64,000 nucleotides of DNA from Posidoniimonas polymericola (GTDB lineage Bacteria; Planctomycetota; Planctomycetia; Pirellulales; Lacipirellulaceae). The stretch covers positions 248,001 through 312,000 of the forward strand of contig NZ_SJPO01000008.1 of the NCBI RefSeq assembly GCF_007859935.1. Direction: 5' to 3'. Below, piece after piece: positions 9,805-11,668 of this stretch (position 1 is the stretch's first letter; each line of letters begins with the position of its first letter). Both the position numbers and the translations under genes were made by a program. The notes beneath the pieces are model-generated. The model was not told the origin of the DNA. It did no database searches and worked only from the letters and a program-made list of their open reading frames with translations.

Positions 9805-11382
9805 CTATGCGCGGCCTTCTTTGGCTAGCTTGTACTCGAAGCTGTCGACCAGGGCGTCCCAGCTGGCTTGGATGACGTTCTCGTTGACGCCGACCGTGCC
9901 CCAGGTCTCGCCGTCGGAGTCGCGGGTCTCGATGATGACGCGGACGCTGGCGGCGGTGGCGGCCTCGCTGTTGATGACGCGGACCTTGTAGTCGACCAGC
10001 TGCATCTGGGCGAGCGCCGGGAAGCGGCCCTTGAGCGCCTTGCGGAGTGCGCCGTCGAGGGCGTTGATCGGGCCGTCCCCCTCGGCGACGCGGTGCTCGA
10101 TCTCGTCGTCAATCGATAGCTTGACGGTCGCCTCGGTTACAGGGCCCTCATTCAAAGAAACGCCGCCGCGGCTCTCGGTCGAGACGTGGTACTTCACCAG
10201 CTCGAAGTGCGGCGCGAAGGTGCCGGCGATCCGCTGCACCAAGAGCGCGAACGACGCCTCGGCGGCCTCGAACTGGTAGCCCTGGTTCTCCAGCTCCACG
10301 ACCTCGTGGAGGATCCGGTCCATCAGCTCTTTGTCCTCCTGCAGGTTGAGCTTGGTCGCCATCGCCAGGATGTTCGACCGGCCCGAGAGCTCGCTCACCA
10401 GCACCCGACGCTCGTTTCCGACGCTCTCGGGCGGGATGTGCTCGTAGCTGTGCGCGACGCGGTTGACGGCGTGCACGTGCATGCCGCCCTTGTGGGCGAA
10501 CGCGCTGGCGCCGACGAACGGCTGGTTGATGCGGTAGCCCATGTTGGCGATCTCATACACGTAGCGGGAGAGCTCGGTGAGGTGCTCGGTCTGTTTCCCT
10601 CCCAGCACCTGATAGCCCTTCTTCTTGAGGCCCAGATTGGCCATCACGCTGATCAGGTCGGCGTTGCCGCACCGCTCGCCAAAGCCGTTGATGGTGCCCT
10701 GCACGTGCGTGGCGCCGGCGTCCACCGCGGCCAGGCTGTTGGCGATCGCCAGCTCGCAGTCGTTGTGCGTGTGGATGCCGACCGGCTTGTCGACCGCTTC
10801 TTGCACCAGCTTGACGTAGTGGGCGACCTCCTCCGGCATGGTTCCGCCGTTGGTGTCGCACATCACGATCCGCATCGCGCCGGCGTCGGCGGCCGCCGTG
10901 AGGGTCTGCAGGGCGTAGGCCTCGTTGATCTTGAGCCCGTCGAAGCAGTGCTCGGCGTCGTAGATCACCTCGCGCCCCTCGCCGACGAAGTAGGCGATGG
11001 TCTCGGCGATCATGTCGATGTTCTCTTGCTCGCTGACCCGCAGCACCTCGGCGACGTGGAAGTCGCTGGTCTTGCCGACGATGGTGACGACCGGCGCCTG
11101 GGAGTCCATCAGCGACTTCATGCCGGGGTCGTCGGCCGGCTTCATGCCGCGGCGGCGGGTCATGCCGAACGCGCACAACTTGCTGTGCTTGAGCGGGTCG
11201 GCGGCGATCCGCTGGAAAAACTCGGCGTCCTTGGGGTTAGAGAGCGGGTAGCCCCCCTCGACGAAATCGACGCCCACCTCGTCCAGCCGCCGGGCGATGA
11301 GCACCTTGTCGTCCAGAGAGAAGTTCACGCCCTCGCCCTGGGCGCCGTCGCGGAGGGTGGTGTCGTAGATTTCGATTTGCAT
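9805..11382 (-). CDS. cimA: (R)-citramalate synthase
   Basis: Protein of 525 residues of the HMGL/isopropylmalate synthase family. It starts IEIYDTTLRDGAQGEGVNFS (metal and substrate site). GIHTHNDCELAIANS carries the HxH metal ligands, GTINGFGERCGNADL follows, then a C-terminal regulatory LeuA-like dimer domain (about 395-525). The order and length fit the citramalate synthase subgroup, which condenses pyruvate and acetyl-CoA in the threonine-independent route to 2-oxobutyrate and isoleucine. LeuA is the alternative, but the DTTLRDGAQGEGV start and AEHCFDG favour CimA. Transcription probably starts near 11.63 kb and passes a leader peptide and terminator before the ATG at 11382, so expression is likely attenuated by isoleucine supply. 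Confidence 0.9.
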   Translation of the reverse strand: MQIEIYDTTLRDGAQGEGVNFSLDDKVLIARRLDEVGVDFVEGGYPLSNPKDAEFFQRIAADPLKHSKLCAFGMTRRRGMKPADDPGMKSLMDSQAPVVTIVGKTSDFHVAEVLRVSEQENIDMIAETIAYFVGEGREVIYDAEHCFDGLKINEAYALQTLTAAADAGAMRIVMCDTNGGTMPEEVAHYVKLVQEAVDKPVGIHTHNDCELAIANSLAAVDAGATHVQGTINGFGERCGNADLISVMANLGLKKKGYQVLGGKQTEHLTELSRYVYEIANMGYRINQPFVGASAFAHKGGMHVHAVNRVAHSYEHIPPESVGNERRVLVSELSGRSNILAMATKLNLQEDKELMDRILHEVVELENQGYQFEAAEASFALLVQRIAGTFAPHFELVKYHVSTESRGGVSLNEGPVTEATVKLSIDDEIEHRVAEGDGPINALDGALRKALKGRFPALAQMQLVDYKVRVINSEAATAASVRVIIETRDSDGETWGTVGVNENVIQASWDALVDSFEYKLAKEGRA

Positions 11383-11455
11383 GGCTGTCAGCTATTGGCT
11401 ATCGGCTGTCGGCTGGCCCTTCTGCCGACAGCGGATAGCTGATAGCCGAGAGCCA
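11383..11455. repeat. Heptamer-like repeat forming a hairpin just before cimA
   Basis: Directly abutting the cimA start codon are degenerate 7-bp units of the type GGCTRTY, in one orientation for about five units and in the opposite orientation for about four. Together they can fold into a hairpin whose core is GCTGTCGGC/GCCGACAGC. The units resemble the 22-copy heptamer tract at 59822-59975. It lies between the attenuator terminator and cimA, so it becomes part of the cimA 5' untranslated region. Confidence 0.55.
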
Positions 11456-11457
11456 AC

Positions 11458-11490
11458 AAAAAAACCCCAAGACCGTTTTCGGCCTCGGGG
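11458..11490 (-). terminator. Intrinsic terminator in the cimA leader (attenuator)
   Basis: On the minus strand, CCCCGAGGCCG (11490-11480) pairs with CGGTCTTGGGG (11475-11465) over 11 bp with two G-U pairs and an AAAA loop, followed at once by seven T (11464-11458). This is a textbook intrinsic terminator, yet it lies upstream of cimA in the direction of cimA transcription. Its 5' arm can alternatively pair with CGGCCTTAGGG (11531-11521) at the end of the leader peptide (10 of 11 positions, counting one G-U), which would prevent termination. Confidence 0.85.
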
Positions 11491-11522
11491 CTGTGGATTG
11501 TAACGTTTTCCGTCAAACCGCC

Positions 11523-11567
11523 CTAAGGCCGCTGCTCCCGGGTAATCGCAATAATCCCGACAACCAT
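11523..11567 (-). CDS. Putative cimA leader peptide (MVVGIIAITREQRP)
   Basis: Fourteen codons from ATG 11567 to TAG 11523. Of the first nine residues, two are Val, three Ile and one Thr, including an ATT-ATT-GCG-ATT run. This is the composition of leader peptides that sense branched-chain amino acids. The last codons and stop lie inside the antiterminator segment (11531-11521), so a ribosome reaching the stop would mask it, while one stalled at the Ile codons would leave it free. No Shine-Dalgarno site is visible before the ATG, which is common in this genome. Translation is inferred, not shown. Confidence 0.65.
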   Translation of the reverse strand: MVVGIIAITREQRP

Positions 11568-11639
11568 GCGTCGGCGGCGGCTAGCGGGGGCAGGGGACAC
11601 GTTTCGATAGACTCTCGGAGGGCTTGTGACGGTACTGCA

Positions 11640-11668
11640 AGGCTAATGCCCGGCGGCCGTGAAGTCAA
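11640..11668 (-). promoter_or_regulatory. Candidate sigma-70 promoter for the cimA leader
   Basis: On the minus strand TTGACT (11668-11663) and TAGCCT (11645-11640) are separated by 17 bp. The predicted start near 11633 would give about 65 nt of RNA before the leader peptide. It diverges from the first SPFH gene. Confidence 0.55.

Follow-up and report, generated by a model that had tools for sequence, protein, structure and literature searches.

Leader-peptide attenuation is a long-known mechanism. In the ilv and leu attenuators of enterobacteria, a short leader contains codons for the end product, an antiterminator and a terminator exclude each other, and a T tract lies before the first gene. 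According to excerpts of a 2010 survey, leader-peptide attenuation was undemonstrated outside the Proteobacteria and Actinobacteria, to which the survey adds the Firmicutes (PMC2965389). For the leaders of ilvB and leuA in Actinobacteria, the available part of one source gives mutation data that do not fit classic attenuation (PMC1262725). The original prediction placed an isoleucine attenuator upstream of a citramalate synthase gene, cimA, and knew of no description of such control for this gene or for planctomycetes. A search of open-licence PubMed Central agrees with this view, as no report of attenuation at cimA or in planctomycetes was found. The sole paper found that combines citramalate synthase with a leader peptide deals with an archaeon and, in the portion available, cites ilvBNC attenuation (PMC13158618).

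The window analysed here is a 64,000-nucleotide stretch of Posidoniimonas polymericola DNA (positions 248001–312000 of its contig; genome size 6.26 Mb). The gene proposed as regulated is indeed cimA: its product scored 641.7 bits with TIGR00977 (cut-off 450), and all remaining listed models having a cut-off scored below theirs in the profile comparison. The best CimA matches among named records were planctomycetes, including Bythopirellula polymerisocia and Adhaeretor mobilis. The promoter, leader frame, pairing arms, AAAA loop and T7 tract were all located on the minus strand at the coordinates originally assigned to them. The features, all on this strand, are:

11640–11668, minus strand: predicted promoter, TTGACT (11668–11663), 17 bp spacer and TAGCCT (11645–11640); from sequence and conservation.
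11523–11600, minus strand: predicted leader frame of 25 codons from GTG, MSPAPASRRRRMVVGIIAITREQRP, stop TAG; start codon inferred from the relative L003, translation predicted.
11523–11567, minus strand: shorter frame of 14 codons from ATG 11567 to TAG 11525–11523, MVVGIIAITREQRP, the 3' part of the 25-codon frame; from sequence.
11521–11531, minus strand: arm A, CGGCCTTAGGG, putative 5' strand of the antiterminator, including the leader stop; from conservation, swap test and folding.
11491–11520, minus strand: linker joining A to B, with a small hairpin of its own predicted by folding.
11480–11490, minus strand: arm B, CCCCGAGGCCG, common to the antiterminator (A:B) and the terminator (B:C); from covariation, swap test and folding.
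Between 11480 and 11475, minus strand: terminator loop, AAAA; from sequence.
11465–11475, minus strand: arm C, CGGTCTTGGGG, 3' strand of the terminator; from terminator scan, covariation and folding.
11458–11464, minus strand: T7 tract; from sequence and terminator scan.
9805–11382, minus strand: cimA, citramalate synthase (TIGR00977).

Pairing of CGGCCTTAGGG with the 5' arm of the terminator had been described as covering 10 of 11 positions with one G-U, and the same count was obtained here, together with one A·C mismatch. In the window, the stretch from A to B folds with –25.6 kcal/mol (z –4.9), the linker contributing extra pairs, and the B:C terminator folds with –19.9 kcal/mol (z –5.2). 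Folded as one piece, the RNA spanning arm A through the T tract favours the terminator. A scan of 1.5 kb gave five terminator-like sites where 1.0 would be expected, and this terminator has the most pairs among them. The upstream neighbour's frame in the window is oriented opposite to cimA, which rules out an assignment of the terminator to that gene. A 32-nt inverted repeat with 84% complementarity lies at positions 11382–11455, downstream of the T tract and ahead of cimA.

The leader stop precedes cimA by 140 nt, with the terminator and its T tract in between. This distance bears on the reading that the leader controls how cimA is translated, through reinitiation for instance, rather than its transcription. 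Leader genes near start codons, planctomycetes included, have been interpreted in this way in excerpts of one study, but the distances given there are about 10–11 bp (PMC4833913). For the cimA leader we consider an effect on translation highly improbable.

Terminators upstream of amino-acid genes can also be under the control of T-boxes and riboswitches. The window gave no match at gathering score in Rfam release 15, T-box and amino-acid leader families included, and 11 cimA loci searched with E up to 1 returned irrelevant weak matches only. T-box and other Rfam families were rejected because no covariance-model match was obtained in the window or in these 11 loci. In the accessible part of a T-box survey, the single planctomycete genome covered had none (PMC2494555). 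The probability that the element is a T-box, a riboswitch or a member of another known RNA family is thus negligible.

The leader frame of the original prediction is present, rich in Ile and Val, and ends within arm A; its start is the part that needs revision. The closest relative, L003, belongs to the same genus (CimA 90–91% identical) and has ACG at the position of ATG 11567. Both organisms possess an in-frame upstream GTG; the resulting frame has 22 codons in L003 and 25 in the window, where it starts at GTG 11600. For these two reasons, GTG 11600 is the likely start codon rather than ATG 11567, from which 14 codons had been counted.

Beyond the own locus, cimA regions were obtained from 29 relatives and 80 contigs. 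The 109 usable regions include near-identical pairs and comprise 103 distinct ones; L040, where the gene start lies beyond the contig, and L002, which is leuA, were dropped from the cimA counts. A second collection of 21 cimA and 19 leuA-like (L194–L212) upstream regions was drawn from 30 genomes; the two cimA sets share organisms (L179 equals L052 and L189 equals L059 in the leader). A terminator score of at least 28 was found upstream of cimA in 71 of the 109 regions, whereas three dinucleotide-shuffled versions of the set gave 1, 0 and 0. In one form that is common among Pirellulales, the leader ends with GGCCTTAGGG and is followed by CCCTGAGGCC, a loop, GGCCTCAGGG and T. At several loci, L060, L062, L072 and L082 among them, the middle base of all three arms is altered in step, giving CCTGAGG, CCTCAGG, CCTGAGG or CCTGGGG. 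Judged from sequence, the architecture is one that recurs across the class Planctomycetia. Alignment with relatives had been set beforehand as a check of the prediction, and the leader codons and pairings were found to be kept in close and distant relatives alike.

Many relatives lack the element. A strong terminator is missing at 31 of 103 and 5 of 21 cimA loci, same-family members included, and at 2 of 20 leuA-like loci; no frame was found at 7, 1 and 1 loci of these sets, respectively. Outside the class Planctomycetia, 4 of 20 cimA loci (L252, L254, L257 and L269) display a short Ile-rich frame followed by a terminator with unrelated arm sequences; a strong terminator is missing from 15 of these 20 loci.

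A separate search covered 40 loci chosen for having no clear element adjoining cimA. In L008, L010, L014, L034 and L035, of which L014 and L035 are alike, the element is located 497–571 bp upstream of cimA; two weaker matches, L012 and L090, are doubtful. The gene between the displaced element and cimA belongs to Pfam family PF05635 (23S_rRNA_IVP) in two tested loci, and the intervening genes of L008 and L014 carry the same motif. A 23S_rRNA_IVP-family gene positioned between the attenuator and cimA would fall under isoleucine control.

Covariation, codon usage, arm swaps, folding and the promoter were examined in 57 distinct loci preselected for a terminator score of at least 26 and at least two Ile in the frame that ends at A; the resulting numbers therefore describe loci already picked as positive. 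The doubtful-looking loci L012, L031, L044, L051 and L090 were retained among them; the folding test used 55 and the promoter test 54 of the 57. The pattern TTGAC-N16-18-TAnnnT was present 5' of the leader at 43 of the 54 selected loci, with 0.29 loci expected from shuffles, and the spacer is 17 bp long in 40 of these 43. A stricter promoter scan found no site upstream of cimA in the window, because TAGCCT shares no more than 3 of 6 positions with TATAAT. Its assignment as a promoter is based on conservation in relatives, and this consensus suggests that transcription starts upstream of the leader, as had been predicted.

Covariation of both pairings had been named as a check. For B:C it was evident, with 54 two-sided changed cells in the 57 selected loci versus at most 30 in 500 shuffles; such changes occur at 5 of 9 consensus pairs (22 sequences). 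For A:B, the column-wise comparison in a MAFFT alignment was not significant: 0.746 of cells were paired (shuffle mean 0.731, maximum 0.755), and 22 cells were changed on both sides (shuffle maximum 28). We take this weak signal to reflect a displacement of arm A by one column in a single lineage, and an alignment-free swap test was therefore substituted. Here, each locus's own A paired with its own B scored 19.27, compared to 16.92 (sd 0.42) with the B arms of other loci, and none of 20,000 permutations of the 57 selected loci reached the observed value. The second pairing is thus supported by the swap test and not by alignment columns. Measured locus by locus against shuffled upstream sequence, A:B reached the 0.05 level in 37 and the 0.01 level in 18 of 69 cases. 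The antiterminator fold was better than –5 kcal/mol in all 55 loci folded, and the terminator was the more stable structure in 43. Taken together, the sequences of the putative arms A and B indicate that they coevolve.

The Ile codons of the leaders differ from those of the genes. In the 57 selected loci, ATT accounts for 171 of 225 leader Ile codons and for 359 of the 1548 Ile codons of cimA, an odds ratio of 10.5; its share exceeds that of cimA in 53 of 57 leaders. Such a bias to the less-used Ile codon fits what a sensitive leader would be expected to show. The last Ile codon begins a median of 15 nt 5' of arm A in the 57 loci, and exactly 15 nt in the window. In 8 of the 57 it begins 10 nt or less from A, a spacing at which a stalled ribosome might hardly leave A exposed; this was counted against an attenuator. 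Overall, the ATT bias and the spacing are consistent with leader translation and stalling on scarce tRNA.

A sister element is associated with leucine synthesis. The own-genome paralogue of cimA (G000:C13:113942-115417) was identified as leuA (TIGR00973, 717.2 bits, cut-off 598.7), and a Leu-rich leader, MNSRTLLSLLLLELAPVLHHRGS, with arms of the same kind is present upstream of it (L002 and L114). The other leuA-like genes are second matches in each genome at about 30% identity, the NCBIfam identification applying to the own-genome leuA alone. For the specificity comparison, the frame richest in I+L+V was chosen in each region, a rule that favours neither Ile nor Leu. Ile exceeded Leu in 67 of 80 cimA frames and Leu exceeded Ile in 8; among 17 leuA-like frames, the corresponding numbers were 0 and 16. 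The Fisher p value for leader residue versus gene, 2.8e-12, is optimistic given shared ancestry and the repetition of some organisms. The predicted leader amino acid appears to track the gene, namely Ile for cimA and Leu for leuA-like genes.

A covariance model of the element gave at least 33 matches in the own genome, with cimA first and leuA second, in a scan whose first pass scored 150 of 1941 candidates; with this limit, attenuators of other sequence may exist there. Among 30 matched loci on both strands, a frame with at least three Ile or at least five Leu ending at the A arm occurs in the cimA and leuA places only. Repeats of the form GCYGAYAGC, similar to the inverted repeat ahead of cimA, are present elsewhere in the genome, with 26 matches at no more than one mismatch, several of them overlapping; the reversed pattern has 11. 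A further frame rich in Leu, VYLLLWLLLRSQGPGGRA, is present in L160 and L170 (G018:C1 near 4655669), at a place other than leuA; its end falls at an A-like arm, and a terminator follows.

These comparisons also bear on the idea that the terminator alone imposes a fixed lowering of cimA transcription, the leader frame being there by chance. In favour of this idea, no other part of the element is as strongly conserved as the terminator, and the own genome has many similar ordinary terminators without leaders. Such a reading leaves the Ile frames at cimA and the Leu frames at leuA-like genes, the codon bias and the coevolution of A with B without a reason, and is very unlikely.

The case for an attenuator at cimA is made up of its anatomy, its conservation, the coevolution of alternative partners and a leader residue matched to the gene. 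From these we infer leader translation, stalling, termination and a response to isoleucine. The element is very probably a ribosome-mediated transcription attenuator; the interpretation proposed for it at the outset is supported by the conservation of leader codons, pairings and promoter and by the division between Ile (cimA) and Leu (leuA-like) leaders. RNA polymerase would start at 11640–11668, followed by a ribosome translating the leader. With ample isoleucyl-tRNA, the ribosome would reach the stop within arm A and cover A; B would then pair with C, and transcription would stop at the T tract ahead of cimA. With scarce isoleucyl-tRNA, the ribosome would stall at the ATT codons; the final one begins 15 nt before A. 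Arm A would then be free to pair with B, leaving C unpaired, and cimA would be transcribed.

A class-wide search with the CimA of Zavarzinella formosa, a member of the Gemmataceae, yielded 30 loci. Twenty-five came from the family holding a genome with an identical CimA. A terminator score of at least 24 was found in 21 of these 25, all 21 having at least two Ile in the chosen frame. I+V exceeded L in 20 of the 21 leaders, and the swap test in these 21 loci gave 0 of 20,000 permutations. The GC-rich hairpin and the leader are retained without a strong T tract after them in L215 and L235, which may terminate by another route.

Within their last 24 codons, the 21 Zavarzinella-family leaders have means of 4.1 for Ile, 4.3 for Val and 0.6 for Leu, and the leader in the window contains Val besides Ile. 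The pathways to isoleucine and valine have the later ilv enzymes in common. The same mechanism might hence respond to a joint isoleucine and valine signal, at least in some lineages. Elsewhere, however, Ile is the richer and ATT-biased residue, and leader Val codons, judged by eye, are not enriched in a rare codon. We regard a joint signal as possible though unlikely.

Inspection of 20 hand-picked loci revealed a hairpin, GCGC[A/G]-GGGAG-[T/C]GCGC, inside the leader directly 3' of the Ile codons in 15 distinct contexts (L091, L100, L101, L102, L107, L214, L215, L219, L220, L223, L226, L228, L232, L233 and L236). It occurs as a single copy, upstream of cimA, in 9 of 10 genomes searched, which were mostly chosen for having it. 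Two loci, L223 and L233, show a compensatory change of the closing pair, with G-C in place of A-T, and encode ARGAR in place of AQGVR; this points to a role at the RNA level. A typed composite of the hairpin was no more stable than shuffles (z 0.09). The GGA loop is reminiscent of a CsrA site or a pause hairpin.

Separate transcription and translation have been proposed for Gemmata obscuriglobus (Gottshall et al. 2014, as cited in the available parts of PMC5287468, PMC6212462 and PMC5394234). Excerpts of another paper set this proposal against a Gram-negative cell plan (PMC6554331). Attenuation needs a ribosome close behind the polymerase, so that the element in Gemmataceae makes the disputed separation testable. 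A broader proposal combines attenuation across Planctomycetia including Gemmataceae, a ribosome within tens of nucleotides of the polymerase at cimA, and the leader hairpin of Gemmatales and related planctomycetes as a second input; we give this combination about an even chance. If true, coupling takes place at cimA even in bacteria claimed to separate transcription from translation.

If the attenuator reading is true, leader-peptide attenuation extends to the Planctomycetota and to cimA, and provides a means by which isoleucine would control the citramalate route, with a sister one for leucine and leuA. A candidate RNA, the Rhodopirellula-1 motif, has been listed for Planctomycetes and Proteobacteria with a 'y' in one yes/no column of a table in the accessible text (PMC2864571); the present element is absent at the Rhodopirellula cimA loci L088, L095, L096 and L098. 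Judged from the available parts of the respective papers, the closest counterparts elsewhere are of three kinds. The histidine leader peptides of hisS/hisZ in bacilli likewise represent attenuation outside the Proteobacteria and Actinobacteria, but concern histidine, the Firmicutes and a tRNA-synthetase gene (PMC2965389). The Leu-rich attenuator peptide of the Staphylococcus aureus ilv operon is also a branched-chain leader outside the Proteobacteria; it differs in its leucine signal, in its host phylum, Firmicutes, and in its target, the ilv operon (PMC5794164). Candidate leaders ahead of actinobacterial ilvB and leuA resemble the present one in being Ile/Val/Leu-rich and located before branched-chain genes; in Actinobacteria, however, the leader either shares sequence with the terminator or forms a pseudoknot (LEU element), whereas A, B and C are separate here (PMC1262725).

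With the enterobacterial ilv and leu operons the cimA element shares a short leader of end-product codons, a predicted mutually exclusive antiterminator and terminator, and a T tract before the first gene. It differs from them in its target, cimA of the citramalate route to isoleucine, and in its host phylum, the Planctomycetota. Also, it consists of three arms with the leader stop within arm A, and the Pirellulales alignment contains no conserved separate upstream 1:2 hairpin. The mechanism is old; the gene cimA and the phylum Planctomycetota seem to be new for it.
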